Positions 4,250 through 60,241 of a stretch of DNA of 64,000 nucleotides are shown in pieces. Both the position numbers and the translations under genes were made by a program. The DNA is from Lewinella sp. 4G2 (GTDB lineage: Bacteria; Bacteroidota; Bacteroidia; Chitinophagales; Saprospiraceae), in NCBI RefSeq assembly GCF_001625015.1, contig NZ_LVWJ02000014.1, forward strand, positions 3,162,001-3,226,000. Reading direction: 5' to 3'. The notes under the pieces are model-generated. The model ran no database searches. It was not told the origin of the DNA and was given only the letters and a program-made list of their open reading frames with translations. Within the stretch, counting starts at the first letter, position 1; the number at the start of each line of letters is the position of its first letter.

Positions 4250-5014
4250 ATGAAGATCGCACTACTTGGCTACGGCAAGATGGGCCGCGTCATTGAGGGA
4301 CTGGCCCAAGCTGCCGGCGACGAGATCGTACTGCGGGTCGACGAGAGCAACCGAGGAGACATCACTGCGGCCGACCTGGCTAAAGCTGACGTCGCCATTG
4401 AATTTAGCCGTCCGGAAGCCGCTCCCGGTAACATCGATTTGGCACTTGCTGCTGGCGTCCCCATCGTAGTCGGGACGACTGGCTGGTTAGCGCAGTTACC
4501 CGCCATTAGCGAGAAGGTAGTGGCTGCGGAGGGTGCCCTTTTCTGGGCGTCCAATTTCAGCGTTGGAGTGAACGTGTTCTTTGCGGCGGCAAAACAGTTG
4601 GGGCAGTTGCTCGGTCAGTACCCAGGCTACGCGGCCAGCGTGGAGGAGATCCACCACTTACAGAAGTTGGATTCGCCGAGTGGGACGGCCATTACCTTGG
4701 CGGAGTCCTTTGCAGCCGGAAATCCTGCTTACGGCAGTTGGTCCTTGGACCGAGTTACGTCTATAGTCCCCCAACAAAACATTGCACCTGCGGCAGCGCC
4801 CGCAAATGGTGAAAAGGCGGTACCGATCCACAGTATTCGTGAGGAGGGCGTGCCAGGGACGCACTTGCTAACGCTAAGCTCTGGCGTGGATACGATTGAG
4901 TTGAAACACACGGCACACTCCCGGGAAGGCTTTGCGAAAGGTGCTCTGGTGGCGGCTAACTTTTTGCGGGATAAGAAAGGTGTCTTCACGATGGAAGACC
5001 TTCTGAAGCATTAG
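4250..5014 (+). CDS. dapB: 4-hydroxy-tetrahydrodipicolinate reductase
   Basis: 254 aa, starting at the ATG at 4250 (an in-frame TTG lies 6 bp upstream). It catalyses the NAD(P)H-dependent reduction step of the diaminopimelate/lysine pathway in the cytosol. The nucleotide-binding loop is GYGKMGR near the N-terminus, and the substrate/catalytic segment EEIHHLQKLDSPSGTA contains the family His-His and Lys. The C-terminal dimerisation part has REEGVPGTH. Between these domains is an Ala/Pro stretch (IAPAAAPANGEKAVP) where other DapB proteins have a short variable loop. This stretch is encoded by one copy of the dispersed 17-bp element (4784-4800). The gene follows lepB after 39 bp. Confidence 0.95.
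   Translation: MKIALLGYGKMGRVIEGLAQAAGDEIVLRVDESNRGDITAADLAKADVAIEFSRPEAAPGNIDLALAAGVPIVVGTTGWLAQLPAISEKVVAAEGALFWASNFSVGVNVFFAAAKQLGQLLGQYPGYAASVEEIHHLQKLDSPSGTAITLAESFAAGNPAYGSWSLDRVTSIVPQQNIAPAAAPANGEKAVPIHSIREEGVPGTHLLTLSSGVDTIELKHTAHSREGFAKGALVAANFLRDKKGVFTMEDLLKH
4784..4800 (+). repeat. Dispersed 17-bp element, copy 1 (inside dapB)
   Basis: Exact match to GCACCTGCGGCAGCGCC. Here it is in the reading frame that encodes Ala-Pro-Ala-Ala-Ala-Pro, in a variable loop of DapB. Confidence 0.8.
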
Positions 5015-5039
5015 GGAACAATTGGACCGGCTTGCGTTG

Positions 5040-5047
5040 TATGTTTG
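5040..5047 (+). promoter_or_regulatory. Bacteroidota-type -7 box for the beta-propeller gene
   Basis: TATGTTTG matches the TAnnTTTG -7 consensus of the Bacteroidota housekeeping sigma factor. It ends 19 bp before the ATG at 5067, giving a short leader. No convincing -33 TTTG is seen at the expected spacing. Confidence 0.45.
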
Positions 5048-5066
5048 CCACCGCAAAACACCCGCT

Positions 5067-7583: not shown

Positions 7584-7692
7584 CCCCCCGGTAGTAGTCC
7601 CCCCGGTAGGTTGACCTTTAGGTCAACCCATGAGGAGAAGACTACCAATTTACAGGTTGTGTTTGTGAAGGTTGCGCCCGACCTAAAGGTCG
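7584..7692. repeat. Intergenic palindromes with ACC-TTTA-GGT cores and a 15-bp direct repeat
   Basis: Two copies of CCCCCCGGTAG (7584-7594 and 7599-7609) are 15 bp apart. They run into a perfect palindrome, GGTTGACC (7609-7616), loop TTTA, GGTCAACC (7621-7628). A second palindrome, CGACC-TAAA-GGTCG, lies at 7679-7692. The region separates the convergent gre-like and scoB genes. There is no T-run, so a terminator role is unproven. The first palindrome recurs at 12775-12792. Confidence 0.75.
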
Positions 7693-9179: not shown

Positions 9180-10304
9180 CTACTGCTTATTCAACGCCCA
9201 ATCGTAGTCCCGGAAACCAATCTCGACGTCGGCGGGGATCGGGGTCGGTAGGTATTTATTTAAGTAGGTGCGCAGGTCGCCGAAGTCTTCACCGTACCAA
9301 TCAAAGATCTTGGAAACGGCCACTTCATCACCGATGGTATTGTACGCTGGGTTGCGGACGAATGCCCGTGTCCGCTCCGTCAGTAAGGATTCTACATTAG
9401 CCGCCATGAAAGCCTTATTCGGGAGGGGTGGGCAGGATTTAGCGGCACAATTCACGGCGAAATGAATCCGTGCATCTTTAAAGCGCGGGCGAATGATGTC
9501 GTGCTCGATGTTGTTCAGGCTGTACGTTTCACCCTCAATTTCGATCCATTTTACTTTCCACGGGTCGCCTCCGTCGAGATCCGTAATGGACGCTACGGGG
9601 TAGTCCCGCAAAATGCGCTTTATGGTAAAGGCATTGTACGCGTTGATCCAGTAGGCTAGGGAAGCCCTCCGGCCCCACGTGCCCTTTGGCGCCGTCTCTT
9701 GTAGGGTGGCTAAGTAAGCGTCGAGTTCGCTTTCGCTACTTTTAAATCCTGCATAATCGACGTTACCAGCATCGTCAACGTAGCGTTGCAATAGAGTATT
9801 CCAGGGCTGGTGTGAAGGCGAGGCTGGCGGAATTTCCAACGCTTCCTCTACTTCCATTGTAGCTGGCTCATCAGAAGATGCTTCAGCAGAAGCGGGCGCT
9901 GCCGCAGGTGCCGGGGAAGTTGGGGAAGCCGCCACGGGAGCGTTCACGACCGGACTGGAGGTGACGGGCTCCGCTGCAGGACGGACCGGCGTAGAAGGAG
10001 CTGATGCGGTAACCGCTGGCGCAGAGACGGCCGTCGGCTTTACTCTTGGGTTGATCTTCGGTTTTTCAGTATCAATAGAACTTGGGGTGGGTTCCGGCAT
10101 TCTTTCTGGCTCGACGGTACTGGGGTCCACATTACGGGTGAACTCTACCTGATCCTGTTTGACGGGTAGGTCTTTTTGGACGGGTGCCTCCGCCACGGAG
10201 GGCTGACTTTTGGTGCTAGCATCGTCACTCCGAGCCCGCGTTCCACAGGAGATGAGTAGAAGAACGGTGATAAGAAGGCTAAGTGATTGAAGGGTTAATT
10301 TCAT
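9180..10304 (-). CDS. DUF547 domain lipoprotein with Ala/Pro-rich linker
   Basis: 374 aa. The signal peptide ends in a lipobox (LLISCGTR, Cys20), predicting a lipoprotein. Residues about 25-165 are a low-complexity linker rich in Ala, Pro, Ser and Val. The C-terminal 200 residues are a DUF547 domain: WNTLLQRYVDDAGNVDY, then SLAYWINAYNAFTIKRIL, NNIEHDIIRP and HFAVNCAAKSCPPL, all typical of the family. DUF547 proteins are widespread in marine bacteria with no assigned enzyme activity. The linker includes a copy of the dispersed 17-bp element (9895-9911) read as Ala-Pro-Ala-Ala-Ala-Pro. Confidence 0.85.
   Translation of the reverse strand: MKLTLQSLSLLITVLLLISCGTRARSDDASTKSQPSVAEAPVQKDLPVKQDQVEFTRNVDPSTVEPERMPEPTPSSIDTEKPKINPRVKPTAVSAPAVTASAPSTPVRPAAEPVTSSPVVNAPVAASPTSPAPAAAPASAEASSDEPATMEVEEALEIPPASPSHQPWNTLLQRYVDDAGNVDYAGFKSSESELDAYLATLQETAPKGTWGRRASLAYWINAYNAFTIKRILRDYPVASITDLDGGDPWKVKWIEIEGETYSLNNIEHDIIRPRFKDARIHFAVNCAAKSCPPLPNKAFMAANVESLLTERTRAFVRNPAYNTIGDEVAVSKIFDWYGEDFGDLRTYLNKYLPTPIPADVEIGFRDYDWALNKQ
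9895..9911 (-). repeat. Dispersed 17-bp element, copy 2 (inside DUF547 gene)
   Basis: The minus strand reads GCACCTGCGGCAGCGCC exactly. It lies in the Ala/Pro-rich linker of the DUF547 lipoprotein, read in the Ala-Pro-Ala frame. Confidence 0.8.
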
Positions 10305-10707: not shown

Positions 10708-11832
10708 ATGGAAGAATCGAAGATCGTCCGGGCACTGGCCGGCGTACAGGACCCCAACACCGGTACGGATATCATCACCGCCAATATGGTCCTGCACCTC
10801 AAGGTGGATGCCCCGAACGTCAGCTTCACCCTCCAGCTGCCGAAGTTGGATAATGATTATAAGCAGCAACTAAACTTCGCCTGCCAGGAGGCCATCTTAG
10901 GCATTTATCCCGAAGCGAACGTGCACGTCCACATGCAAAACCCATCTTCCGCTGCACCTGCGTCAGCGCCAAATGGAGCACCGGGTGGGCCGCAAAAAGC
11001 GAACCCGCTGCCGCACGTGCGAAACATAATCGCCGTGGCCAGTGGTAAAGGTGGGGTAGGGAAGTCTACCGTGGCCGTCAACCTGGCCCTGGCTTTGCAA
11101 GAGATTGGTGGCGCCGTCGGCCTGCTGGATGCTGACGTTTACGGGCCCTCTGCGCCAACGATGCTGGGCCTGGTAGGGCAGAAACCGAAGGTGGAAAAGG
11201 TATACGGTAAACCGAAGATCAAGCCACTGTTCGCCTACGGAATGCCAGTGATGAGTACCGGATTTGTGGTGGAACCCGAACAAGCCGTCGTCCTCCGGGG
11301 CCCCCGCCTGAGTGGTATCATCAAGCAGTTCCTGGAAGAATGTATCTGGCCGCCACTGGACTACCTCATTATCGACTTACCCCCAGGGACAGGTGACGTG
11401 CAACTCAGTTTGGTACAAACGGTGCCCGTAACTGGTGCCGTTCTGGTTACGACCCCACAGGATGTCGCCCTTGCCGATGCGGTAAAGGCAATGAATATGT
11501 TCTTCCTGCCAGACGTTCAGGTTCCCGTGCTCGGGGTCGTCGAAAATATGTCCTGGTTCACTCCCCGCGAACTGCCGGATAACAAGTATTACCTCTTCGG
11601 GAAGGATGGTGGAAAAACGCTGGCCAAAAAATCCAACAGTATGCTGCTGGGCCAAGTGCCGCTGATCGAAGGCATCCGCGAAGGGGGAGACGACGGCAAG
11701 CCGGCTTTCCTAGACCGTGACGACGAAATGGTCCGTGAGGTCTGGTTGAAGGTAGCCAAGAACGTTGCCCGCCAAACCGCCCTGCGCAACGAAATGATGG
11801 AGCAGACGCCCATTGTTCAGATCAAGTCCTAG
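10708..11832 (+). CDS. Mrp/ApbC family P-loop ATPase (Fe-S cluster carrier type)
   Basis: 374 aa. The N-terminal 95 residues are a MIP18/DUF59 domain. An Ala/Pro/Gly linker (about residues 80-105, PSSAAPASAPNGAPGG) leads into a P-loop ATPase with the deviant Walker A SGKGGVGKS at residues 112-120, and DLPPGTGDVQLS further on. Mrp proteins of this family carry or transfer iron-sulfur clusters. The CxxC that binds the bridging cluster in many members is absent: the equivalent place after VVENMSWF reads TPRELPDNKYY. So cluster carriage in the classical way is uncertain. The linker contains a copy of the dispersed 17-bp element (10954-10970). The stop codon lies 3 bp from the stop of the convergent NlpC-like gene. 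Confidence 0.88.
   Translation: MEESKIVRALAGVQDPNTGTDIITANMVLHLKVDAPNVSFTLQLPKLDNDYKQQLNFACQEAILGIYPEANVHVHMQNPSSAAPASAPNGAPGGPQKANPLPHVRNIIAVASGKGGVGKSTVAVNLALALQEIGGAVGLLDADVYGPSAPTMLGLVGQKPKVEKVYGKPKIKPLFAYGMPVMSTGFVVEPEQAVVLRGPRLSGIIKQFLEECIWPPLDYLIIDLPPGTGDVQLSLVQTVPVTGAVLVTTPQDVALADAVKAMNMFFLPDVQVPVLGVVENMSWFTPRELPDNKYYLFGKDGGKTLAKKSNSMLLGQVPLIEGIREGGDDGKPAFLDRDDEMVREVWLKVAKNVARQTALRNEMMEQTPIVQIKS
10954..10970 (+). repeat. Dispersed 17-bp element, copy 3 (inside mrp)
   Basis: Exact GCACCTGCGTCAGCGCC, encoding Ala-Pro-Ala-Ser-Ala-Pro in the interdomain linker of the Mrp ATPase. Confidence 0.8.
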
Positions 11833-12708: not shown

Positions 12709-12728
12709 AGCACCTTGTTCTTCACGTT

Positions 12729-12792
12729 GGTTGACCTCCGGTTGGTTGACCCCAGGTAGGTTGACCCCAGGTTGGTTGACCTTTAGGTCAAC
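12729..12792. repeat. Four 15-bp tandem repeats ending in a palindrome
   Basis: GGTTGACC recurs at 12729, 12744, 12759 and 12774, exactly 15 bp apart, with the units differing in their last bases. The last unit becomes the palindrome GTTGACC-TTTA-GGTCAAC (12775-12792), the same palindrome as at 7609-7628. If translated with the downstream gene it would encode a VNQPG-like pentapeptide repeat, but the gene probably starts after it. Confidence 0.8.
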
Positions 12793-18129: not shown

Positions 18130-19353
18130 CTACTTTTTCTTCTTTTCCCAGGCTTCCGCCTCCTTCATCAAGTCCTCCAGCGACATATTATCGGTGCGGC
18201 TGAAGTGCAGCGTTTCTTTGTATTCCTGCCGGTCCAATTCCACTATTTTGATCTCGGTTCCGGTGTAAGCTTCGATGGCCCGCAACTTGTCGTGCTCATT
18301 CGGAGCGCAGAAGGTGTAAGCGATTCCCCGGCGGTCGCCACGGCCGGTCCGGCCCACACGGTGGACGTAATTATCGGGCTGGTCCGGCAGATCGTAGTTG
18401 ATCACGTGGGTCACGTCGGCGATGTCAATTCCGCGGGCACTTACGTCGGTGGCGACCATCATCCGGGTAGCGCCTTCCCGGAAGTCTTCCAGCGCTTTAT
18501 TCCGGTCGTCCTGGCTCATGTCTCCGTGTAGGACCAGGGCTTCAATACCGACGCGTGCCATTGCTTTTGTTACTCTTTCGGCGCGGACGCGGGTGCGAAC
18601 AAATGTAAGGAGCTTCGCCTCCGGGTTTTCTTTGTAGAAGCGCTCGAGGAAAAATCGCTTATCATCCATTTCGATGAAGACGACGGAGTGATCGACGTTG
18701 CGAGAAATAGGATCCTTCGGTGAGATCTGAATTCGTATCGGCTTTTTGACCAGCGTGTAGGCCAATTTCTTGATCTTCTCATTGATGGTGGCCGAAAAGA
18801 ACAGGGTCTGCCGTCGTTTGACGAGGTGGCCCATGATGCCACGGATATCATCAATAAAACCAAGGTCGAGCATCAGGTCCGCTTCGTCCAGTACGAGGAT
18901 GTTGACGCGGCTGAGGCGCAGCGCTCCCTGATTCAACAAGTCAAACATCCGGCCGGGGGTGGCGATGAGGATGTCGACACCATCCTGCAACTGCGCGATC
19001 TGTGGGTCCTGTTCCACCCCTCCGGTCAGGGCAAATATATTGACGCGGGTACCCTTCGCCAGGTCGGAAAACACCTGATCCAATTGCATGGCCAACTCCC
19101 GGGTAGGGACCATTACCAGACACTTGATGCCGTCCTTCCGCCGCTGCCGTTCTTTCCCGGTGTGGATCAACTGGATGACCGGGATGGCGAAAGCCGCCGT
19201 CTTCCCCGTGCCGGTTTGGGCGATCCCCATCACATCTTCACCTTTCAGGATATGGCGGATGGCCTTGTACTGGATATCCGTAGGTCGTTTCCAACCCAGC
19301 TTACCGATTGATCTTTTGATTTCCGGAGCGAGGGGATATTGGTCGAATTTCAT
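18130..19353 (-). CDS. DEAD-box RNA helicase, RhlE-like
   Basis: 407 aa ATP-dependent RNA helicase. All core motifs are visible in order: the Q motif region WKRPTDIQYKAI, motif I AQTGTGKTAA, Ia PTRELA, Ib TPGR, II LDEADLML, III SATI, then ARGIDIADVTHVINYDLP and the final HRVGRTGRG. The C-terminal tail after the core is short, as in RhlE/DeaD-like proteins of Bacteroidota. The likely role is ribosome assembly or mRNA turnover, especially in the cold, though the sequence does not define the substrate. A -7 box ends 4 nt before the start codon, suggesting a leaderless message. Confidence 0.93.
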   Translation of the reverse strand: MKFDQYPLAPEIKRSIGKLGWKRPTDIQYKAIRHILKGEDVMGIAQTGTGKTAAFAIPVIQLIHTGKERQRRKDGIKCLVMVPTRELAMQLDQVFSDLAKGTRVNIFALTGGVEQDPQIAQLQDGVDILIATPGRMFDLLNQGALRLSRVNILVLDEADLMLDLGFIDDIRGIMGHLVKRRQTLFFSATINEKIKKLAYTLVKKPIRIQISPKDPISRNVDHSVVFIEMDDKRFFLERFYKENPEAKLLTFVRTRVRAERVTKAMARVGIEALVLHGDMSQDDRNKALEDFREGATRMMVATDVSARGIDIADVTHVINYDLPDQPDNYVHRVGRTGRGDRRGIAYTFCAPNEHDKLRAIEAYTGTEIKIVELDRQEYKETLHFSRTDNMSLEDLMKEAEAWEKKKK

Positions 19354-23079: not shown

Positions 23080-23096
23080 GCACCTGCGGCAGCGCC
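23080..23096 (+). repeat. Dispersed 17-bp element, copy 4 (intergenic)
   Basis: Exact GCACCTGCGGCAGCGCC in the 98-bp gap between the DUF4249 and DUF1501 genes. The left flank ATCCTTGCTT is shared with the copy at 59926. Confidence 0.85.
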
Positions 23097-33412: not shown

Positions 33413-33550
33413 CGGCAAGAATGTCCCCCTGCGACCGTTCTCCGGCAACTATTATTTGCTTGCCAAAACAACTTTATTCCTTCCAATGTTAAGCCAATGT
33501 AAATTTTGGATTAACTTAGCCTTTACAAGACCCATCCAGTGTTAAGAGTA

Positions 33551-34522
33551 ATGTCACATCCCAGCTCCAAAAGTCGCCTCCTCGGTGTTTTGGCCCTGCT
33601 CGCCGCTTTCGGCCAGTGGGCGCTGGCGCAGGTGCCCAATACGGTGGCAAGCAACGAGGTGGCCAACTATTTACGGGTGGACGCTAACGATAAGTTCAAG
33701 GACCTACGTCCCGGTCTGACGGCCGGCGCCCAGTCCTTCGACTTCTCCAACAATCTCATTTACTTCACCGCCGTCGCCGATGGGAAACGCGGAAACTTCA
33801 TTCTCGATACCGGAGCCCCCGAGGTACTGATCAACGACCGTGGCCTGGCATCCCGCGGCAGCGCCCCCGTGGGAATTGCCGCCGGAGGCGAAGTATCGTT
33901 GGCAGATCATTTCATCAAATCGTTTGTGTTTACCGGAAAGGAACACCGCAAAATGTGGGCCTATTCCCTGGACCTCCGCCCCCTCGAAACCAGGATCGGC
34001 AAAGAGGTAGACGGATTCGTAGGCTACAACTTGCTCGGCGACAGCGAATTGCGGATTGACTATTTCGCACGGACATTTCAGTTGGTAGCCTCAGAGAAAA
34101 GACCGGTGCATTTCGGCCGCCAACCCGATCATGAAGTCGCCTTCTCGATGGTTGGTCATCTACCGGTAGTCACCGTAAAACTGGGAAAACAGAAACTGCG
34201 CCTTGCGCTAGACACCGGCGCTAGCGTAAGTCTGATTGATGCCTCCGTCGCGCAGACTAAACCTTCCGGTTCGAAAATGAATATCCAGGGGCTGGACGGC
34301 GAAGCCTTCGTAGCCAACCTGGTGAACCTGGACGGTAACGCTGACCTTCCACAACTGGAGAATCTTGAGTTTGCTTCATTTGAGGTAACCCAACAAAGTG
34401 CTTCCCGTAGTGGTAAGGACATTCACGGAATTTTGGGTAGTGATTATTTGTCCAAATTCGTGATTGGTATTGATTACCGTCGCCGTCGTTTATATCTTTG
34501 GAACCCCAGCCTAAGCAAATAA
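33551..34522 (+). CDS. Exported retropepsin/pepsin-like aspartic protease with two DTGA motifs
   Basis: 323 aa from the ATG at 33551 (an in-frame GTG lies 12 bp upstream). The signal peptide ends in WALA before QVPN. Two Asp-Thr-Gly-Ala motifs are present, NFILDTGAPEVLIN (Asp86) and LRLALDTGASVSLID (Asp221), each with hydrophobic flanks, and hydrophobic-hydrophobic-Gly motifs follow (GFVGYNLLG; IHGILGSDYL). Retropepsin-like bacterial proteins usually have one motif and dimerise. Two in one chain suggest a self-contained pepsin-like protease. The signal peptide region encodes a variant of the dispersed 17-bp element. A 78-aa gene starts 1 bp after the stop. Confidence 0.85.
   Translation: MSHPSSKSRLLGVLALLAAFGQWALAQVPNTVASNEVANYLRVDANDKFKDLRPGLTAGAQSFDFSNNLIYFTAVADGKRGNFILDTGAPEVLINDRGLASRGSAPVGIAAGGEVSLADHFIKSFVFTGKEHRKMWAYSLDLRPLETRIGKEVDGFVGYNLLGDSELRIDYFARTFQLVASEKRPVHFGRQPDHEVAFSMVGHLPVVTVKLGKQKLRLALDTGASVSLIDASVAQTKPSGSKMNIQGLDGEAFVANLVNLDGNADLPQLENLEFASFEVTQQSASRSGKDIHGILGSDYLSKFVIGIDYRRRRLYLWNPSLSK
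33619..33635 (-). repeat. Dispersed 17-bp element, copy 5 (inside protease signal peptide)
   Basis: The minus strand reads GCACCTGCGCCAGCGCC; the free central base is C, unlike the G/T of other copies, so this is the least certain one. It spans the predicted signal peptide cleavage site. Confidence 0.55.
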
Positions 34523-43505: not shown

Positions 43506-43602
43506 GGGCGCTGTCGCGGGTGCCGAGGTAAGGGCGAGTAATTTGTAGGACACGCCCAGTTGAAGTGATCCAGTTCAGCTTGGTCTCACCCACCATAAAA
43601 GG

Positions 43603-45071: not shown

Positions 45072-45088
45072 GCACCTGCGTCAGCGCC
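45072..45088 (+). repeat. Dispersed 17-bp element, copy 7 (intergenic)
   Basis: Exact GCACCTGCGTCAGCGCC in the divergent gap between the geranylgeranyl reductase gene (start 44999) and msrA (start 45169). No frame through it is coding. Confidence 0.85.
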
Positions 45089-51348: not shown

Positions 51349-51365
51349 GGCGCTGCCGCAGGTGC
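51349..51365 (-). repeat. Dispersed 17-bp element, copy 8 (intergenic)
   Basis: The minus strand reads GCACCTGCGGCAGCGCC exactly. It is upstream of the flavin disulfide reductase gene and outside any supported frame. The flank ATTGTTTG matches the copy at 38431. Confidence 0.85.
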
Positions 51366-51489
51366 CAAACAATAGGCAAGCAATCAGTATCGGCCAAAAT
51401 CGCATGTGGCAACTGTCGCCAACGGACGGAGCACCAACGGAAAGAGTAAACCTTCACCAAGGGAAAACCTTCTACCCAAAAACCAACCC

Positions 51490-52929
51490 GTGGCCAAAGA
51501 CTCAACCTACGACCTAATTGTAATCGGCGCCGGCGCCGGAGGACAGGGCGCCGCCGGCTTCGGCTCCATGATCGGGTTGAAGGTGGCCCTGATCGACAAG
51601 GAGGCGAAGAACTTCGGCGGGGATTGCCTGAACTACGGTTGCATTCCCTCCAAAGCCTTGTTGCACGTGGCCGCCCAATTTGCCGGCGCGAAGGAAGCGG
51701 AGAAATTTGGCCTCCAAACTTCGGGCAAGGCCGACTTTAAAAAGGTGATGGCGTACGTCCACGCCCAACAGGAGGTTATCCGGGCTAAGGAGACGCCTGA
51801 GTATTTCGCGGAGGAATTTGGTACGGAATGCATCATCGGTACCGCCCGACTGAGTGAAAGACGAGAGGTAACCGTAAACGGTAGAACGTTACGGGCACGG
51901 CGGATTGTTTTGGCGACGGGTAGCGTCCCCCGCCACCTGGACTTGCCCGGTTCGGATGCCGTGAAACAGTGGGACAACGAATCTCTCTTCTGGGAACTAG
52001 ACGAATTACCGGGACATCTCCTCATCATCGGTGGTGGTCCCATCAGTTGTGAGATGGCCCAGGCTTTCGTCCGCCTCGGTAGCCGGGTGACGCTGCTCGT
52101 GCGGGGAAACCGGCTGTTACAAAAAGATCCACCGAAAATGGGAGAGATCCTGGCCGAACGGCTGCGCTATGAAGGGGTTGACTTAAGGTTGGAGACGGAA
52201 ATAGCGTCCTTCTCGCAGCCTTTCCAGGCCTTGTTGAAAGATAGTGGAGAGGAAGTTGATTTCTCTCACTTGCTGGTGGCGATCGGCCGCACCGTCCGCA
52301 CGGAAGGGCTCGGCCTCGCGGATGCTGGAGTCGAAGTAAAAAATGGCAAGATCGTCGCTGATGATTACTACCGGACGACGAACAAGCACGTCTACGTCGT
52401 CGGGGATGCCTACGGCCGGGAGATGTTCAGCCACGGCGCCGAAAAACACAACACGGATCTGTGGACCAACCTCCTCAGCCCCATCGACAAACGCCACCGC
52501 CTCGATAATTTCTCTTGGGTCACCTTCACCGACCCGGAGATCGCCCACTTCGGCCTCACCGCGGACCAACTGGACGAACGCGGCATCAGCTACCGCACCA
52601 TCCACCAATCCCTGGAACATGACGACCGTGCCGTCGCCGCCGATTTCCGATACGGGCACCTGATCCTCTACGTCAAAACCAGTTGGCGGGGGAAGGGCAA
52701 GTTACTCGGTGGTTGCCTCGCCGCCCCGGCTGCGGGAGAGATGATTCAGGAGTTGTCTCTACTGCAAACCCTGGGCAAGAAGTACAGTACGCTTACCCAG
52801 AAGCTCTACGCCTATCCCGTGGCCAGCCGTATCCACCAAAAACCGGCGCGAGACGAGGCGGCGAAGGTGTTGAAATCCGCTGCCGTAGCTAAGGCGATGC
52901 GGGTAGCGTTCCGTCTGCAGAATAGGTAG
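51490..52929 (+). CDS. Pyridine nucleotide-disulfide oxidoreductase (dihydrolipoamide dehydrogenase/mercuric reductase-like)
   Basis: 479 aa from the GTG at 51490; a GTG at 51406 would add a low-complexity 28-residue leader that has no counterpart in the family. FAD site: YDLIVIGAGAGGQGAAGF. The redox-active pair is GGDCLNYGCIPSKALLH. The NAD(P) loop is HLLIIGGGPISCEMAQ. The dimerisation domain should end HxHPTLSE with catalytic His and Glu, but here reads YAYPVASRIHQ, so both are lost. It is therefore not an active lipoamide dehydrogenase and lies nearer the uncharacterised MerA/RclA-like group. Substrate unknown. No Hg-binding or lipoyl genes are near. Confidence 0.85.
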   Translation: MAKDSTYDLIVIGAGAGGQGAAGFGSMIGLKVALIDKEAKNFGGDCLNYGCIPSKALLHVAAQFAGAKEAEKFGLQTSGKADFKKVMAYVHAQQEVIRAKETPEYFAEEFGTECIIGTARLSERREVTVNGRTLRARRIVLATGSVPRHLDLPGSDAVKQWDNESLFWELDELPGHLLIIGGGPISCEMAQAFVRLGSRVTLLVRGNRLLQKDPPKMGEILAERLRYEGVDLRLETEIASFSQPFQALLKDSGEEVDFSHLLVAIGRTVRTEGLGLADAGVEVKNGKIVADDYYRTTNKHVYVVGDAYGREMFSHGAEKHNTDLWTNLLSPIDKRHRLDNFSWVTFTDPEIAHFGLTADQLDERGISYRTIHQSLEHDDRAVAADFRYGHLILYVKTSWRGKGKLLGGCLAAPAAGEMIQELSLLQTLGKKYSTLTQKLYAYPVASRIHQKPARDEAAKVLKSAAVAKAMRVAFRLQNR

Positions 52930-52943
52930 CCTGACGTGGACGT

Positions 52944-53260
52944 AAGAAGCACGGCCCCGAAGGGCCCGCCTGCGTAGCGATGGCACTGGCGTCAGCCTGG
53001 CCCATCGTACAGGGGCGAAGTTGGATCAAGCGAAGGTGGCGAGAATAAAAATGATGCCTTCGAGCAAATCCGGACCGGAGGTCCGGAACCGAGAACCGTG
53101 GGGAACCAAAGGCAAAAGAAGCACGGCCCCGAAGGGCCCGCCTACGTAGCGATGGCACTGGCGTTAGCCTGGCCCATCGTACGAGGGCGATGTTGGACCA
53201 AACGTTGGTGTAGTTATCGCAGGTGATAACTAACAGAAAATCCGGACCGGAGGTCCGAAA
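52944..53260. repeat. Direct duplicate of a structured intergenic module (172-bp spacing)
   Basis: The 75 bp starting at 52944 recurs at 53116 with only a few changes (AAGAAGCACGGCCCCGAAGG start). Each copy ends with the palindrome CCGGACC-GGA-GGTCCGG region, while the middle differs. Predicted hairpins are GGGCCC-TTCG-GGGCC (with a UUCG loop on one strand) and GATGG ... CCATC. Copy 2 also holds GTTATC ... GATAAC. It lies between convergent genes. No protein gene is supported in 52930-53274. Confidence 0.75.
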
Positions 53261-53274
53261 CCGGCACGGAACCT

Positions 53275-54762
53275 TCAAACCAAGCCCAACACCAAATACA
53301 ACAAACAAGCCAACCCACCAGCAATCCCCGCATAAGGCAGCTGCGTCTTCACGTGGTCCACGTGATCAGTAGCGGAGGCCATGCTGCTCAGGATGGTTGT
53401 ATCGGAAATGGGGGAGCAGTGGTCGCCGAAAACGCCACCACCCAGCACGGCGGCGATGGCCATCAGCACGTTGGCATCGAGATCGCGGGCCATCGGGACG
53501 GCGATCGGAATCATGATCGCAAAGGTGCCCCAGCTCGTACCGGTGCTGAAGGCGATGAAGCACGTCACCACGAAAACGAGGAAGGGGACGAGGCCGGGGG
53601 AAAGGAATCCCTTCGCCACGTCCGCTACGTAAATGCCGGTTTCCAATTTTTTGCATAATCCACCAATGGCAAAAGCGAGGAGCATCAGCAGGGCCAGCGG
53701 GATGAGGCCGGCGATCCCCTTTAGTACGAGGTCTACGCTTTCGCGGATGCCGAAGATCCCCTGCACTTTGTAGTAGGCCATGCTGACCAGTATGCTCAGG
53801 GTCACGGCTACCAGCACGGCGGTTGACCCGCTTCCACTGCCGATGGCCTGGAAGACCAATTCCATCGCACCTGCGTCAGCGCCCAAGAGCTCTTTGGCAG
53901 AGGACCAGCCCGTATAGGCCAGCATGAAGGGCATGAAAACGACCATCACCACGATGGGTAGAATCATGTTGCGCGCACGTTGGGGCACGCCTTCCTTGGC
54001 GGAGATATCGGTGAGTTCAGTATCGACGACGGGAGTGGCTCCCTCGCTGAGGACTTCGCCCGCAGCGGCCCGTTCGGCGGCCTTGCGCATGGGCCCGAAA
54101 TCGCGTTTCAGGAGAATGATGACCGGCACCAGCAGCAGCGCAAAGATGGCGTAGAAATTGTAGCCGATGGCTTGGATCATCGTGCTGAAAGGGTTGGCAA
54201 AACCCTCCGCCGCTAGCAGCGTCATGATGAAAGCGCCCCAGCCGTTGAAGGGGATGAGGATGCTACTCGGTGCGCTGCTCGAGTCTGCGATGTAGGCCAG
54301 TTTCTCGCGGCTAATGCCCAGTTTATCGAAGATCGGTCGGTAAAGCGTGCCGACGGTGAGGACGCTGATGCTAGACTCCACGAAGACGAGTGCGCCCGTC
54401 AGCCAGGCCAGTAATTGGACGACAACCCGGCCCTTGCCATCCGCCTGCGCTTCGTACTTCGCCAGCCTCCGCTCGACGGCCGCGATGAAGCCCGCCACGC
54501 CACCCGAGCGCTGCATGAACACAATGAGCGAACCGACGAGGGCGCAGAACATGATCGTCCGCGTGTTGCCGGCATCCGCGAACACATCGACCAGCCCTTG
54601 CATCGTATCCAGGAAGCCCAGCCACGGATTACCGCCGGCCAGAATGACATAGCCCAGGAAGATGCCCGCAATCAGCGAAATGAAAACCTGGCGCGTAGCG
54701 ATGGCCAAAATGATGGCGATGACGGGAGGGAGGAGGGTGAGGATGCCTAGGGTTTCTGCCAT
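53275..54762 (-). CDS. NhaC-family Na+/H+ antiporter
   Basis: 495 aa from the ATG at 54762 (MAETLG); a longer version would add a non-membrane leader. About eleven membrane segments are visible, for example ILTLLPPVIAIILAIATRQV, GALVFVESSISVLTVGTLY and VPFLVFVVTCFIAFSTGTSW. The segments SSSAPSSILIPFNGWGAFI and GGGVFGDHCSPISDTTILSS carry the family motifs, including a conserved Asp/His pair. It exchanges Na+ for protons, or may take up other substrates as in some NhaC relatives. A dispersed element copy (53867-53883) lies in the coding sequence. Two composite hairpins lie just upstream. Confidence 0.92.
   Translation of the reverse strand: MAETLGILTLLPPVIAIILAIATRQVFISLIAGIFLGYVILAGGNPWLGFLDTMQGLVDVFADAGNTRTIMFCALVGSLIVFMQRSGGVAGFIAAVERRLAKYEAQADGKGRVVVQLLAWLTGALVFVESSISVLTVGTLYRPIFDKLGISREKLAYIADSSSAPSSILIPFNGWGAFIMTLLAAEGFANPFSTMIQAIGYNFYAIFALLLVPVIILLKRDFGPMRKAAERAAAGEVLSEGATPVVDTELTDISAKEGVPQRARNMILPIVVMVVFMPFMLAYTGWSSAKELLGADAGAMELVFQAIGSGSGSTAVLVAVTLSILVSMAYYKVQGIFGIRESVDLVLKGIAGLIPLALLMLLAFAIGGLCKKLETGIYVADVAKGFLSPGLVPFLVFVVTCFIAFSTGTSWGTFAIMIPIAVPMARDLDANVLMAIAAVLGGGVFGDHCSPISDTTILSSMASATDHVDHVKTQLPYAGIAGGLACLLYLVLGLV
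53867..53883 (+). repeat. Dispersed 17-bp element, copy 9 (inside nhaC)
   Basis: Exact GCACCTGCGTCAGCGCC, antisense to the gene, which reads through it as Gly-Ala-Asp-Ala-Gly-Ala in a loop between membrane segments. Confidence 0.8.
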
Positions 54763-54787
54763 AGGGGGAAGATAAGAACTCGGGACG

Positions 54788-54936
54788 GTCGTCGGACGAT
54801 TCACCATATTTTGCGTAGCAAAATTTGGCATCGTCCGCCGACTATTGTAAGGTCTAATCTAAGTTTAGGCATGGCTGAGTCGTCGGACGATACTAATCTT
54901 GCGCTTCGCTACAGATTAGTGAATCGGCCGACGACT
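54788..54936. repeat. Two tandem composite hairpins
   Basis: Hairpin A has outer arms 54788-54800 and 54830-54842 (one mismatch) and an inner ATTTTGC/GCAAAAT pair. Hairpin B has outer arms 54878-54891 and 54923-54936 (one mismatch) and an inner ACTAATCT/AGATTAGT pair. Both start with GTCGTCGGACGAT. B ends on the dgkA stop codon. They resemble REP/BIME-like repeats more than simple terminators. Confidence 0.8.
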
Positions 54937-55605: not shown

Positions 55606-56967
55606 TTACTTCTTGGAAATGACTTTCCCACGCAGCTTTTGCAATAAGTGGTTGCCTACGTTTTCGCCCTGAATGACGCCTTCGGTGATGGCGGGCATGT
55701 AGTGAATGCCTCCGTACAAACGGCTGATGGCGGCTTCCTCACTGGCGTGTTTGAAGCTGGTGTAGCTTCGTTCCGGGAGGTCATATTCTACTTCGGAGTC
55801 GTCCGTGAAGGCAAAGTCTTCGCCGTAGAGGTCCGTCAGCACGATCGCACAGGCGCGGCTCACCACGCTGTGGCCGGAGGTGTGCTCGGGGAAAGGAGGC
55901 GTCTGGAGCAGCGGTGCCCAGTCTTCGTCGATGTGGGTGTTGATGAAGGTTTCGGGGCGGACGAGGTTGGAGCGGTATTTTTCGTCCCAGCAACTGATGA
56001 AGCCGTCGTGCATGGCCATGCTCACGAGGGCGTAGGCTTCCACGGTTTTGGCGAAATCGGCCTTTGCGAGGCGGCTGGTGATGGCCGTAATGTTGATCCA
56101 GTGGCCGCCGGGGGTGATTTTTTTCGTGGCGAACATCATGTGCCCCACGTGGTGGCTGACGTAGGGATTGCAGTCCCAAAATTTAGCGATGGCGATGCGT
56201 TCGGCGCGTTCGGCTTCGTCCTCCACTTTCAGGGCGTCGTAGACGATCTCGGCGCCTTTGAACCAGTCCGAGCCTTCCTTCGGGTCGTACTCCGTGGGTG
56301 GTTTGGGCTTGAATTGGTCGGCGCTTTCTAGGGTGAAGGGGCGAATCTTTGCCCAGCTCGGTTCGATGCCGTCCATGTAATCCGGCGGGGTGGGTTGCCA
56401 CTTCGAGGGGTCGCGCGTCACGCTGTATTTCGGGAAGGTCCGCGACTGTTTGTAGAGGTCACCATCGTACCAGGCAATCACGTGGTCGGCAACGCGGTGG
56501 CCGTATTCGATGGAGGCGAACAGCACTTCGTCGGGCACCCCGATGTCGTCGATTTCTATGACGAGGGAATCGGTGAAGGTTTGCAGCCGATCTTCAGAAA
56601 AGATGAGGGATTTGCCCACTTTCTGCTGGGCGGCGATGGCGGCGATCGGGTAGCTGATCTCCACGTCGGAGTTGGGCGCTGGCGCGGGTGCGAGGTGGGG
56701 AATACGGCCAGCCAGACTCTCCAGTTCCGGATCACCCGCAGCGAGGGCTTCGTAACCAGCAATGGAGGAATAGGCATAAATACGGCCGGCAACGGGCGGG
56801 GAAAAGATGTCGTGCACAATCACGTCCGTCAACTGCTTAACGGACCGGTGGTAGAACTCTGGTTGGGCGACTTCTTCCTGGTAGTTCGGGTTGATGTCTT
56901 CGCCGCAGGAAGTGACCAGGAGGGAAAGGGTTACTAGCGGGAGGAGAAGGTGGCGGGCGAGTTGCAT
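55606..56967 (-). CDS. Vanadium-dependent haloperoxidase/PAP2-like lipoprotein
   Basis: 453 aa. A lipobox (LSLLVTSCGED) predicts a lipoprotein. The C-terminal half has the vanadate/phosphate-binding motifs of the PAP2/haloperoxidase superfamily in order: EKYRSNLVRPET, FPEHTSGHSVVSR and AISRLYGGIHY. All key Lys, Arg, Ser-Gly-His and Arg/His residues are present. Members are either vanadium haloperoxidases or acid phosphatases. Close relatives in Bacteroidota are annotated as haloperoxidases, but the sequence cannot decide. A one-mismatch variant of the dispersed element lies at 56674-56690 in an Ala/Pro stretch. It precedes the small membrane protein and dgkA. Confidence 0.85.
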   Translation of the reverse strand: MQLARHLLLPLVTLSLLVTSCGEDINPNYQEEVAQPEFYHRSVKQLTDVIVHDIFSPPVAGRIYAYSSIAGYEALAAGDPELESLAGRIPHLAPAPAPNSDVEISYPIAAIAAQQKVGKSLIFSEDRLQTFTDSLVIEIDDIGVPDEVLFASIEYGHRVADHVIAWYDGDLYKQSRTFPKYSVTRDPSKWQPTPPDYMDGIEPSWAKIRPFTLESADQFKPKPPTEYDPKEGSDWFKGAEIVYDALKVEDEAERAERIAIAKFWDCNPYVSHHVGHMMFATKKITPGGHWINITAITSRLAKADFAKTVEAYALVSMAMHDGFISCWDEKYRSNLVRPETFINTHIDEDWAPLLQTPPFPEHTSGHSVVSRACAIVLTDLYGEDFAFTDDSEVEYDLPERSYTSFKHASEEAAISRLYGGIHYMPAITEGVIQGENVGNHLLQKLRGKVISKK

Positions 56968-57093
56968 GTCACGCGGGTTTTATTCGGTACGGCTACGCCG
57001 AGTTCAAAAAAGGCGTATTAAGGAAACAAAGGTACGCAGTTGGGTGGTTGAGGGAGATGCGTAGGTTGTTTGTTGTTAAGAGGACCTTTTTTT

Positions 57094-57406
57094 GATTCTC
57101 GATTGGCGATTCTTGATTGGCTCCGCACGCGACAGATACTCGATACTCGATTCTCGATACTCGATTCTCGATTTGCTCCGCACGAGGTCGATATGTGACA
57201 TTTGATAGGTTATAGTTGATATGTGATTTGCTCCGCACGCGACAGATTCTCGATTCTCGATACTCGATTAGCGATTGGCTCCGCACGGCTCAGGCACTCG
57301 CCACTCGCCACTCGTCACTCGCTACTCGAAACTTGCTACTCGCCACTCACTACTCGCTACTCGAAACTTGCCACTCGATACTCGTCACTCGCCACTCGAT
57401 ACTCGC
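57094..57406. repeat. Heptamer tandem-repeat array
   Basis: Runs of 7-bp units such as ACTCGAT, TCTCGAT and ACTCGCC fill about 310 bp. A higher-order unit is marked by CTCCGCACG at 57121, 57176, 57231 and 57279 (spacing 55, 55, 48 bp). The array resembles STRR-type short tandem repeats known from cyanobacteria. It covers most of the 417-bp gap after 56968 and runs 21 bp into the 3' end of the NCS1 permease gene. The remaining 57001-57093 contains no gene I can support. Confidence 0.85.
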
Positions 57407-58803
57407 TGCAAGCGTTTACTGAAGACCAAAAACAACACGCCACAGAGCAGCCAAGCCGGCAGAGTTACGAAGGAGACGAAAATGTTGAACTGGAGGGAAA
57501 GGAAGTAGAAGAGGCCGAAGCTGATGGCCCAGGCACCCAGCACCGCAGGGTTGAACTGGAGGCCGGCGACTTCCGCGTAATTCTTCTGAATGCCCGCCTG
57601 TTTGTGGAAGAAGTGCTCGAAGACGATCACCGCACCGAAGGGGGCCAGGACGAAACCGTAGAAGCCTACGAAACCAAGGAGCTGCATGGCGAAAGCGGGG
57701 AAGAGGCCCGCCACCGTCGCCAGGGTGCCGGCGATGAGGACGCCCCAGGCCGCCGGCTTTTTGGGGATGAGGGTTTGGAAGGCCAGACCGGCGCGGTAAA
57801 TGGTGGGGTTGGCGGTCGTCCAGCCGGCGAGGACTACGGCAATGATGCCGAACCAGCCGATGGCGTTGTAGGCAAGAGGGCCGGGAGCCACTTTGATGTC
57901 TCCACTTTCGAGCATGGCTACGCCTTCGGGGGTGCGGAGGAAAACGGCGAACAGCAGGGCGGCGGCAATCCAGGCCATGTAGTGGCCGACGTACATGCCG
58001 GCGGCGGTCGTCCAGCCGGAGGAGGCTTTTTTGGCGAAGCGGAAGACGGAGAGGTCGGACATCCCGATGTGCATGGCGGCGTTGGCGAACCAGGACCAGA
58101 TAACCACGTGCCAAAAGGTGTACTTGATGGAGCCGCCCATGGGCTCACCGCCGTCGCCCCAAATCGCCCAGAACTCGTCAAAGCTACTGACGCCCAGTTG
58201 GCCGAGGGCCACGAAACCACACACCAGGAAGGCCAGGACGATAATGGGGGACATCCAGCCAGCCGCTTTCGACACCGTATCGTAACCCTTCGCGGCGATC
58301 AGGGTAGTGACGGCACCCACCAGCAATACGATGATGACGTAACTGATTCCGTTTGGCCCGACGGCATCGAGCGCGGGCATTTCCATCCCGACGGGGATAC
58401 CGATGGCCGTTGCGGAAACGGTGAACATCGATCCGGCCAGGAAGCAGAAGAGCACCCCGTTTGCGACATTGTAGAACTTCACGAGGGTCGCGCCACTTAT
58501 CTTTTCCAGCTGAAAATAAAGCGTCAACCGGTTTTTGATGGCTACCTCCGCCGTCAGGAAACGCCAGCTGAGGACGGCCAGGAAATTACCCAGCAGCAGA
58601 CCGACGATGAGGTCGAAGGCGCTTACACCGGCCGTCAGAAAGAGGGGGCCAATCATAAATTCGGTACCGGCAGCGTGTTCGCCGGCGTACATGCCGAGGA
58701 AGCTTTTCCAGCCCTTCCAACGGGAGGCGGGGACGGGTTCGCGCTCGAATTCACCGCCGGCGGCGTCTTCCAGGTATTCTTCTTCTTGGGTGTTCTGTAG
58801 CAT
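57385..58803 (-). CDS. NCS1-type permease, last gene of the rhamnose cluster
   Basis: 472 aa with about twelve membrane segments. The N-terminal SFLGMYAGEHAAGTEFMIGPL and MSPIIVLAFLVCGFVALGQ resemble the nucleobase:cation symporter-1 (cytosine/allantoin/hydantoin) family. SWFANAAMHIGMSDLSVFRF and AGWTTANPTIYRAG are family-like signature positions. Most characterised members carry nucleobases or vitamins. Here the gene closes an L-rhamnose cluster in the same direction, so it may import L-rhamnose or a related deoxy sugar. The final residues VSSGE derive from the heptamer array. Confidence 0.85.
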   Translation of the reverse strand: MLQNTQEEEYLEDAAGGEFEREPVPASRWKGWKSFLGMYAGEHAAGTEFMIGPLFLTAGVSAFDLIVGLLLGNFLAVLSWRFLTAEVAIKNRLTLYFQLEKISGATLVKFYNVANGVLFCFLAGSMFTVSATAIGIPVGMEMPALDAVGPNGISYVIIVLLVGAVTTLIAAKGYDTVSKAAGWMSPIIVLAFLVCGFVALGQLGVSSFDEFWAIWGDGGEPMGGSIKYTFWHVVIWSWFANAAMHIGMSDLSVFRFAKKASSGWTTAAGMYVGHYMAWIAAALLFAVFLRTPEGVAMLESGDIKVAPGPLAYNAIGWFGIIAVVLAGWTTANPTIYRAGLAFQTLIPKKPAAWGVLIAGTLATVAGLFPAFAMQLLGFVGFYGFVLAPFGAVIVFEHFFHKQAGIQKNYAEVAGLQFNPAVLGAWAISFGLFYFLSLQFNIFVSFVTLPAWLLCGVLFLVFSKRLQRVSSGE

Positions 58804-58867
58804 GATCGGAAAAACTAAGGTGGAGGGAAAGTTGTAACGGCGGTTCGGAATCTACTTCTGGATCGGT

Positions 58868-60241
58868 CTAATTTAAGATGTACGGTTGGTGCTTGCGCAA
58901 TCCGTAATTCTGTTTCAGGAATTTGGAGTCCAGGGTTTTGTCCGAAATGGCGATCGCGGCGCCGAGGGCGGAACCCAGGGACGAGTCCGTCGTCCGGACT
59001 TTGAGGTGGCGGTAGCGGTGGGCGATTAGTTTTACGTAGACGGCGTTGTCGCTGAAGCCACCGTCGATGAAGAGTTTGCGGACTTTCGTTTCGCCCAGGG
59101 CCGCGTCGAGGCTGCGGCACTGGAAGTCGACCAATTCGCGCATGAGTTGGTGGTAGGCGCGTTCGTAGGTCCAGGACTTCGGCAGTTTGGTTTTGCCCGG
59201 CTGCCCGGTGTTGTCCAGGTGCTTGAAGTGGAAGCGGGGTTTGGGCTTGGCCGCTAGCTCATCGTTGATCTTCCGGTTGAAGGTGACGGATTTGTGGCGG
59301 CTGCGGTCTACTCCGTAATGTTCGGCCAGGGTGGTGATCTGGTGTTTGTACTCCTCGCCGAGGAAGAGCCGGGCGGCCTTCACCGGTTTGCCGTCGATAC
59401 GCATGTAGTTGATGCAGTTGCGGTCGAGGTCCTCCTGCGTAAGCTGGCCTTCGGCGAAGGGGTTCAGCGAGATGCTCCAGGTGCCGGTGGAGATGAGGAC
59501 AAAGGGCTTCCGTTCCGAGCGGATGTACGGCAGCAGGGCCGCCGAACTGTCGTGAATCCCCACGCCGATCTTCATCCGCCGACCGTTGTAGTTCATGTTG
59601 ATGCTCGTCTCGGTCGAAACGATGGGGGGAAGTACGCGGTGGATGTCTTCCTTATATACCCATTTGTGATAATCCCCCTTTCCGTAATCCCACAGCGCCG
59701 TGTGGCAGCCGATGCTCGTGTATTCGCTGATGGGAATTCCCGTAAAGACGTAGCTCAGGAATTGGGGGAGGTGGAGGGAGTACTTGATCTTCCGAAACAC
59801 CTTCGGCCGGTGGTGCTTGAGCCAGTACAATTGCATCCCCGAATTCAACATCCCCGATGGGGGAGATCCGGTGCTCATGGTGAGGGTATTCCCGGGCCCA
59901 TACCTGCGTTCAAAATCCTTGCTTAGCACCTGCGGCAGCGCCTTCTCGTAATTGTAGAGCGGCGTGAGGACCTGGCCGTCCGCATCGAGGTGGACGAAGC
60001 TGGCGCCGTAGCTCGAAAAATTGATGGCCTTGACGTGGTACTCGCGGGCCTCGAGGATGCGGTGAAACACCTCGCATAGCCAGCTGCTGAGGGCGTCGAC
60101 GTCTTCGGTGGGGAAGCCATCCTCGTCCTCGATCATCTCGAAAGTGACGTATTCCCGGTGGACCTCGCGGAAATCCTCGTCGAAGAGAAAGAACTTCTTA
60201 TTGCTGCGGCCAATGTCGAAAACGGCGGTGACGCTTTGCAT
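58868..60241 (-). CDS. rhaB: FGGY-family carbohydrate kinase, predicted L-rhamnulokinase
   Basis: 457 aa. The N-terminal actin-like fold has AVFDIGRSNKKFFLFDED and INFSSYGASFVHLDADG. The C-terminal half has LISTGTWSISLNPFAEG and RKLFIDGGFSDNAVYVKLIA with ALGAAIAISD at the end, all FGGY features. Its place between rhamnose isomerase and permease genes argues for phosphorylation of L-rhamnulose at O-1. FGGY sugar specificity is not visible in sequence, so fuculokinase or xylulokinase activity cannot be excluded. A dispersed element copy (59926-59942) lies in the coding sequence. Confidence 0.82.
   Translation of the reverse strand: MQSVTAVFDIGRSNKKFFLFDEDFREVHREYVTFEMIEDEDGFPTEDVDALSSWLCEVFHRILEAREYHVKAINFSSYGASFVHLDADGQVLTPLYNYEKALPQVLSKDFERRYGPGNTLTMSTGSPPSGMLNSGMQLYWLKHHRPKVFRKIKYSLHLPQFLSYVFTGIPISEYTSIGCHTALWDYGKGDYHKWVYKEDIHRVLPPIVSTETSINMNYNGRRMKIGVGIHDSSAALLPYIRSERKPFVLISTGTWSISLNPFAEGQLTQEDLDRNCINYMRIDGKPVKAARLFLGEEYKHQITTLAEHYGVDRSRHKSVTFNRKINDELAAKPKPRFHFKHLDNTGQPGKTKLPKSWTYERAYHQLMRELVDFQCRSLDAALGETKVRKLFIDGGFSDNAVYVKLIAHRYRHLKVRTTDSSLGSALGAAIAISDKTLDSKFLKQNYGLRKHQPYILN
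59926..59942 (+). repeat. Dispersed 17-bp element, copy 10 (inside the FGGY kinase)
   Basis: Exact GCACCTGCGGCAGCGCC; the gene reads through it on the opposite strand as Ala-Leu-Pro-Gln-Val, a frame unlike those at 4784 or 10954. Its left flank ATCCTTGCTT equals that of the copy at 23080. Confidence 0.82.

Follow-up and report, generated by a model that had tools for sequence, protein, structure and literature searches.

Why should one 17-base sequence with a single variable position (N) stand ten times, on both strands, in the 64-kb window analysed here (the whole 64,000-nucleotide stretch of Lewinella sp. 4G2)? All ten exact copies were recovered at the positions and on the strands given in the preliminary description. 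Copies within genes include 4784..4800 (+, N = G), inside the dapB frame (ORF 4244-5014, +), where it is read as APAAAP; 9895..9911 (-, N = G), within an Ala/Pro-rich stretch of a DUF547 protein gene (ORF 9180-10304, -); 10954..10970 (+, N = T), in the linker of an Mrp/ApbC-like gene (ORF 10708-11832, +), where G005, a relative, has its own dialect facing the other way; and 38431..38447 (-, N = T), in a TonB-dependent receptor gene (ORF 36016-38523, -), where it encodes GTCVSAQ, which looks like the end of a signal peptide. Others run antisense to genes: 33619..33635 (-, N = C) close to the beginning of an aspartyl-protease-like gene (ORF 33539-34522, +), 53867..53883 (+, N = T) in an Na+/H+-antiporter-family gene (ORF 53275-54831, -), and 59926..59942 (+, N = G) in an FGGY-kinase gene (ORF 58868-60241, -). 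The copy at 23080..23096 (+, N = G) is flanked by two minus-strand genes, that at 45072..45088 (+, N = T) lies between divergent geranylgeranyl-reductase-like and peptide methionine sulfoxide reductase genes, and that at 51349..51365 (-, N = G) is intergenic, upstream of ORF 51406-52929 (+).

Two one-mismatch copies had been placed at 43507 and 56674; the first is exactly there, and the second begins at 56675. Both carry C at position 6. Which start codon is used decides whether the former (43507..43523, -, N = A) falls at the 5' end of ORF 42783-43553 (-) or just before it; the latter (56675..56691, -, N = C) is within ORF 55606-56967 (-). A further near copy at 18580..18596 (-) has C at positions 6 and 12; at position 12, several other species of the genus usually have C. 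With up to two mismatches allowed, 13 matches are found in the window, against 0.04 expected from shuffled sequences.

The repeated sequence is real, and the phenomenon is larger than first described. The whole genome contains 545 exact copies of the 17-mer (280 on the plus and 265 on the minus strand), far above chance, while the reversed control has none. C at position 6 is an ordinary variant, accounting for 27 of the 35 copies with one mismatch in the initial 464 kb; with this letter allowed (the Y6 pattern), a 1.264-Mb sample of the genome holds 223 exact copies (113 + and 110 -), or one motif per 5.7 kb. Copies with 0, 1 and 2 mismatches in this sample number 223, 55 and 26, the reversed control giving 0, 4 and 19, and 200 permuted Y6 patterns gave a mean of 0.01 exact copies and a maximum of 1. 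The 17-mer is the core of a longer motif with a pyrimidine tract upstream, and the flank beyond the core adds about 8 to 11 bits in both genic and intergenic sites. The flanks shared by some copies in the window, as noted earlier, are pieces of this degenerate tract.

Conserved protein sequence does not explain the motif. By home-made gene calls (scored on codons, with each start moved out to the farthest ATG), which make the counts approximate, 119 of the 220 classified sites in the 1.264-Mb sample lie within genes, in both orientations, and 101 between genes; the three remaining sites, at the ends of pieces, fall outside this classification. All six reading frames are occupied, where at least three had been claimed, and a protein-motif explanation is rejected because of this and of the intergenic sites. 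The motif seems to be tolerated in Ala-Pro linkers and in signal peptides. An element acting as hairpin or RNA was also set aside, as the partial CTG-CGN-CAG pairing of the genome's own dialect is, by eye, lost in other dialects.

The origin of the copies was examined in 46 sites compared with orthologues (E up to 1e-25, identity of at least 45%, weaker pairs dropped, some pairs entered from both sides). Among 20 sites whose best orthologue is motif-free, 14 align without gaps and one has a net insertion, 4-8 residues long. Control windows were gapless in 96%; the lower share at motif sites is as expected of variable stretches. On these alignments, sites arise through substitution rather than insertion.

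The arrangement of the copies follows a one-way rule: those in the same orientation avoid each other over about 4 kb, while those in opposite orientations do not. In the 1.264 Mb, only 2 of 54 pairs closer than 2.5 kb have the same orientation, compared with a mean share of 0.56 and a minimum of 0.33 for control 7-mers (200 of 1292 candidates). Such pairs amount to 0 of 11 on other contigs of the genome, 0 of 10 in G011, 0 of 9 in G001 and, over 14 relatives, 4 of 21. By distance, same-orientation pairs number 0 below 1.5 kb, where 27 are expected, and 14 at 4.5-5.0 kb, where 7.6 are expected. The rule was tested after the pattern had been noticed in G000. For contigs C11 and C12, G011 and G001, where the pair tests cover listed places, exact copies and part of each genome, neighbours within 5 kb are alike or opposite in 5/20 (p 0.0041), 6/18 (p 0.023) and 2/15 (p 0.0023) cases, respectively; at any distance, the ratios of 22/37 (p 0.067), 46/46 and 39/52 (p 0.21) are not significant. 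In the parts of the literature available, such exclusion was not found described for known uptake sequences.

Of 63 tiles sampled across the chromosome (20 kb each), three are empty of sites. Outside a low-GC island, the counts per tile are more even than chance (variance/mean 0.54, p 0.0013); within the two contiguous pieces, the distances between neighbours show no significant excess of regularity over random placement (p 0.128 and 0.133). Two tiles at 37-38% GC, from the one island sampled, contain no sites where about 7 are expected. Orientation shows no bias with replication in two chromosome parts (54+/55- and 58+/53-) split roughly at an origin placed from GC skew.

Among 60 genomes searched, the motif is limited to members of one genus, apparently Neolewinella, a marine and harmless genus. 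Near-copies number 245-1631 in each of 18 of the 21 genus genomes, two of the other three have dialects of their own with 477 and 289 copies, and the 39 genomes outside the genus have no exact copy. At least four dialects are clearly distinct (the own type, G004/G017, G001 and G011), the comparison of dialects with lineages being made without a species tree; G013, G015 and G020 were represented by 40 kb each, too short for a profile. Five of 59 genomes outside the genus, representing five other genera of the family, were searched for a dialect over 80 kb each; they yielded arrays, repeats of REP-like or gene-internal kind, or nothing, and no comparable motif. A scan of public genomes with the 17-mer matched at least 120 genomes, with three Neolewinella among the matches listed; 79 of the best 80 have one match and one has two. 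The best 80 of at least 120 matches in a public viral scan divide in the same way (79 with one, one with two).

Genes for natural transformation are present throughout the genus: comEC in 21 of 21 genomes and dprA in 20 of 21, the missing one being from a genome 55% complete. The motif lies within the comEC frame in 17 of 21 genomes (15 exact to the dialect pattern and two with one mismatch) and within dprA in 10 of 20, compared with an exact copy within the frame of mrp, the sole control gene and half the length of comEC, in 2 of 20; comEC and dprA sites are shared by descent, so independent events are few. At one comEC position, nine species carry the motif and a tenth its divergent dialect. 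The dprA of the genome studied here contains no site. The platform family PF00482 of type IV pili and type II secretion systems (T2SS) was found in none of the 21 genus genomes and in 13 of 14 control genomes, and thus the machine of known uptake systems is missing. In Riemerella anatipestifer, also of the Bacteroidota, ComEC, DprA and a DUF5689 protein are required for transformation, and no preferred uptake sequence is mentioned in the available part of that account (PMC8459023). The first two are thus shared, whereas DUF5689 occurs in only one of the 21 genomes; the other of the two Riemerella competence domains searched for occurs in 20. No uptake experiment for the genus was found in the literature searched.

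Of the three candidates first put forward, an uptake or recognition sequence has the strongest support. We lean, with restrained confidence, towards the motif being a signal for recognising self-DNA that is spread over the whole genome. A sequence-specific protein would read it in double-stranded form while DNA is being exchanged, most probably in natural transformation. A receptor, probably not a type IV pilin, would bind some 30-35 bp of outside DNA, and uptake or the recombination that follows would extend to one side only, probably 3', for about 4 kb. A second site facing the same way would then add little, while an opposite one would cover other DNA. Biased exchange would spread and correct the copies, so that they would follow when the preference of the receptor changes.

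Known self-DNA signals offer partial parallels. According to the available parts of two studies, the DUS of Neisseriaceae form species dialects that follow phylogeny, with many near-perfect copies in permissive parts of the core genome and none in recent acquisitions (PMC3630211, PMC2397512). The present motif resembles them in copies, dialects and location, and the two empty tiles of the one island sampled may echo the last feature. It differs from DUS, which are read by the minor pilin ComP, in its phylum, the lack of PF00482, its greater length, its lower density and the same-orientation exclusion. It shares with the USS of Pasteurellaceae, as far as the source seen in part describes them, a core with an extended flank, origin by substitution and dialects, of which USS have two, by subclade (PMC1626085). 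Unlike USS, its flank is pyrimidine-rich rather than AT-rich, a type IV pilus machine is lacking, and the orientation rule applies; its spacing is 5.7 kb as against an average of about 1 kb in Haemophilus, roughly one-fifth of the density, by the portion of the report available (PMC7811141).

A further early candidate, a chromosome-organisation or recombination site, retains some probability, and the one-sided spacing keeps a directional recombination signal in view. A Chi-like signal, read in one orientation by a helicase-nuclease such as RecBCD or AddAB that directs recombination to one side, would make same-orientation neighbours redundant, and the density of one per 5.7 kb is close to that of Chi in E. 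coli. Known Chi sites, however, are 5-8 bases long, while the core here has 17 bases and its flank adds about 8 to 11 bits; the orientation of Chi is biased with replication, whereas no such bias is seen in the rough GC-skew split; changes of dialect and absence from the island do not follow either, and we regard this reading as unlikely. Also unlikely is a binding site for a nucleoid protein, be it one for chromosome organisation, for segregation or for another role, which would suit the even 20-kb counts and the use of both strands; the 63 tiles, under the same rough split, reveal none of the polarity toward the terminus, or restriction to it, that marks KOPS- or matS-type sites, occupation is nearly general, and species dialects replace hundreds of copies. 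The rise of same-orientation pairs near 4 kb, after their absence below 1.5 kb, would agree with a packaging signal, at which a particle or an export machine would begin to take in DNA, one way and always over some 4 kb. This is very improbable, gene transfer agents being described, in the part of the source available, as packaging non-specifically (PMC7947584).

The density of intergenic sites, about 4-6 times that of genic sites by the way non-coding DNA is counted, with its peak in the gaps separating divergent genes, where 33.6 kb contain 34 sites, could point to a binding site of a global transcription factor, against which stand the many sites inside genes in both orientations; such a role has little chance of being the right one. 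High copy number could reflect a mobile mini-element or REP-like repeat inserting copies, the remaining early candidate. A longer REP-like repeat is present in G084, of another genus of the family. The largely gapless orthologue alignments rule against insertion, a long shared flank is not seen and the orientation rule is not expected of such repeats, leaving this explanation hardly credible.

Returning to self-DNA recognition, a broader claim can be made tentatively, somewhat short of an even chance: the motif may mark a third, independently evolved system, in Bacteroidota without a type IV pilus platform, whose sites act directionally over about 4 kb and tile the chromosome in two interleaved opposite series, and whose receptor specificity has changed repeatedly within the genus, dragging hundreds of sites along. 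If so, such systems would evolve without ComP-like pilins, molecular drive would become testable in the genus, and a new question would arise as to what sets a one-way length of about 4 kb. The four or more dialects would also be usable for finding the receptor by co-variation. G007 showed no clear dialect, a profile seeded from the G001 dialect drifting to a weak consensus. It may possibly carry a decayed or further dialect, since it has 7 exact copies of the G001 dialect, and 80 kb of it contain 20 places with at most four mismatches versus 3 for the control. The genome encodes both ComEC and DprA.

The 17-mer GCACCTGCGNCAGCGCC occurs ten times in the window, and every copy reported in the preliminary description was confirmed at its position (4784, 10954, 23080, 45072, 53867 and 59926 on the plus strand; 9895, 33619, 38431 and 51349 on the minus strand). 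Allowing up to two mismatches, 13 matches are found against 0.04 expected. The window spans positions 3162001-3226000 of contig C14 (4.17 Mb) in a genome of 5.2 Mb, and the repetition holds across that whole genome: exact copies number 545, split 280 to 265 between the strands, and the reversed pattern does not occur at all. Position 6 is ordinarily variable, with C in 27 of the 35 one-mismatch copies in the first 464 kb. The pattern accepting T or C at this position (Y6) is matched exactly 223 times in 1.264 Mb (144 with T, 79 with C), with 55 near copies at one mismatch and 26 at two; the reversed pattern gives 0, 4 and 19, respectively. Extrapolation yields about 840-920 Y6 copies genome-wide. 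The sharp peak of these counts at the perfect form means that this form is being maintained by something.

The motif is non-palindromic. When sites are picked by their 17 core bases only, flank position -4 is C in 86% of intergenic and 89% of genic sites, T is found at -7 and -6, positions -12 to -9 are C-rich, and position +1 is C in 70% of intergenic and 78% of genic sites, followed by A/T-rich letters. Information totals about 8.5 bits (intergenic) and 6.6 bits (genic) in the upstream flank, and 2.4 and 1.7 bits in the downstream flank. As coding and non-coding sites have the identical flank, it is a DNA-level signal. The 223 sites are balanced between strands (113 vs 110). Classification with our own gene caller (coding fraction 0.83) covered 220 of them, three at piece ends being left out, and gave 119 genic, 34 divergent-intergenic, 53 tandem-intergenic and 14 convergent-intergenic sites. 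Genic sites occupy all six frames in unequal numbers (32, 29, 25, 24, 8 and 1) and frequently lie within Ala-Pro stretches; one reading frame of the motif falls in apparent ends of signal peptides.

Sixty genomes were searched: that of Lewinella sp. 4G2, 20 of the same genus and 39 from outside the genus. The exact 17-mer is present in 18, all within the genus, where it is missing only from G001, G007 and G011 among the 21 members; none was found in the 39 outside genomes searched. The genus is probably Neolewinella, since records named Neolewinella lacunae, N. antarctica and N. aurantiaca are among the matches listed in a public genome scan, together with at least 117 others scattered over other taxa. 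When two mismatches are tolerated, 245-1631 copies are counted in 18 of the 21 genus genomes (control, 27-278); the counts of G011 (13 vs 17), G001 (41 vs 46) and G007 (85 vs 59) are not conspicuous. Species-specific versions, or dialects, were sampled in 40-80 kb per species from 17 of the 20 relatives. Most of these versions have C at position 12 (GNCCGCGCC or GNCCCCGCC), and GCTCCCGCGNCCCCGCC is favoured in G004 and G017. The dialects of G011 and G001 were found by word enrichment without a prior pattern. That of G011, GCTACTTTG followed by NNAGCC and then A-rich letters, has 477 copies in its genome (control, 2) and no more than two in any other of the 21; that of G001, TACCTGCGCTCCGCCGCC, has 289 (control, 0), with seven in G007 and at most one elsewhere. 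An abundant version is thus seen in 20 of the 21 genus genomes, and no clear one was found in G007.

The comparison across species covered 46 sites in genes for which a good orthologue was available, an orthologue being counted as a carrier if it had at most one mismatch to the general motif pattern at the same place. The motif is found at the orthologous place in 26 cases and not in 20. Most of the motif-free orthologues align without gaps (14 of 20), so the motif replaces existing residues, in stretches more variable than the rest, mean identity at motif-free sites being 34% vs 70% in 920 control windows (96% gapless). A net insertion, of 4-8 residues, is seen in one of the 20, and these alignments argue against the mobile mini-element proposed in the preliminary description; the uptake or recognition sequence also proposed there is the best fit. 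In overlapping pieces of two similar species, all six G017 sites past the cut are also present in G004.

Site counts per 20-kb tile are more even than chance, with a variance/mean of 0.65 over 63 tiles (p 0.013) and of 0.54 over the 61 tiles outside a low-GC island (p 0.0013). Between neighbours within the two longer contiguous pieces, spacing shows no significant evenness (200 kb, p 0.128; window, p 0.133). Three tiles are empty, two of them, with about seven sites expected, at 37-38% GC and sampling a single island. This island lies beyond the window's end on C14 (tiles 3240001-3260000, L298, and 3300001-3320000, L380; about 55% GC otherwise), and neither tile has a motif copy. Among eight of its large ORFs tested, one encodes a DDE_3 transposase and one, of 700 residues, an MCU (calcium uniporter) domain; the other six match no Pfam family.

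Neighbouring sites alternate in orientation (124 opposite vs 50 alike, p 2e-8) because sites of the same orientation exclude each other at short range. Below 2.5 kb, only two pairs share an orientation, where about 44 were expected; convergent pairs number 17 and divergent ones 35, each against an expectation of about 21-22. Same-orientation pairs number 0 vs 27 expected below 1.5 kb, 8 vs 41 at 1.5-4 kb, and 21 vs 15 at 4-5 kb. Their share of pairs below 2.5 kb is 0/11 in contigs C11 and C12, 0/10 in G011, 0/9 in G001 and 4/21 in 14 relatives; for control 7-mers of similar abundance (200 taken of 1292 candidates) it averages 56%, with a minimum of 33%. In the C11/C12, G011 and G001 lists, alternation is significant for neighbours within 5 kb and not significant for neighbours at any distance. 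Pooled divergent pairs outnumber convergent ones (63 vs 36, p 0.009), which weakly suggests that a site serves DNA on its own 3' side.

At somewhat better than even probability, the motif serves in DNA exchange as a sequence by which self-DNA is recognised. Its copies would spread and be corrected through biased exchange, and each site would serve DNA on one side only, so that a second same-facing site would be redundant within about 4 kb and an opposite-facing one would not. Five alternatives are considered less probable: a signal of the Chi type, a site for a nucleoid protein, one for a regulator, a signal for packaging, and a mobile repeat. In the passages cited, uptake signal sequences (USS) of Pasteurellaceae arise by substitution, as the motif does (PMC1626085), and DNA uptake sequences (DUS) of Neisseriaceae, read by ComP, occur as dialects, as it does (PMC3630211); DUS are conserved, lie in permissive core-genome places, are absent from recent acquisitions and have a spacing that matches conversion fragments (PMC2397512). 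The one-sided exclusion over about 4 kb goes beyond DUS and USS as described, a distinction that lies in the descriptions only: a published orientation passage concerns pairs within 14 bp (PMC7811141), orientation bias within genes is mentioned in part of PMC2346458, and no mention of orientation was found in the cited part of PMC2397512. No earlier report of an uptake sequence in Bacteroidetes/Bacteroidota, Lewinella, Neolewinella or Saprospiraceae was found among the open-access papers listed, and a passage from 2025 names Neisseriaceae and Pasteurellaceae as the only families known (PMC12616744).

The competence gene comEC (PF03772) was found in all 21 genus genomes and dprA (PF02481) in 20, the remaining genome being 55% complete. 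The comEC frame contains the species' own motif in 17 of the 21 (15 exact to the dialect pattern, two with one mismatch) and none in G001, G002, G006 and G007. On the protein alignment these sites fall mainly at two columns, 628 in nine species (in one of them with a mismatch) and, in the opposite orientation, 140 in seven others. The very different dialect of G011 occupies column 627, oriented as at column 628. Since the position retains a site while the letters differ, this is the clearest sign that a putative reader protein and its sites change together. Of the 20 dprA frames, 10 hold a site, nine of these nearly co-located by locus coordinates; the frame of Lewinella sp. 4G2 holds none. 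The sole control gene, mrp, half as long as comEC, has an exact site in two of 20 scanned loci (Lewinella sp. 4G2 and G005) and a near copy in G019. The comEC and dprA counts are taken as supporting only, because shared descent leaves few independent events. The type IV pilus/T2SS platform family PF00482 was found in none of the 21 genomes, and ComP-like machinery is therefore not expected. According to a passage on Riemerella, Bacteroidota are able to transform via a partly different machine, with ComEC, DprA, ComF, RecA and four other proteins required (PMC8459023). Two domains from these four were tested: PF07075 is present in 20 of the 21 genomes, and DUF5689 in one, G011 (contig C115, three matches in one reading frame). 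The dialect of this sole carrier found is also the most divergent one.

Other repeats were encountered. The window contains heptamer-like degenerate repeats of the ACTCGAT/ACTCGCC type (57089-57421), a pair of repeat units 172 bases apart and 91% alike over 95 bases (52944-53263), and a second repeated word family with GGTTGACC units and ACCTTTAGGTCAAC palindromes (about 7585-7627 and 12723-12792). In G099, from another genus of the family, a 10-mer set with about 166 copies in 80 kb (L445-L448) resembles an array of the tandem or CRISPR-like kind. In G084, also of another genus, a longer REP-like repeat is built around AACCCTCCGCC..GGCACCTCCC, each core word occurring nine times in 80 kb (L453-L456).
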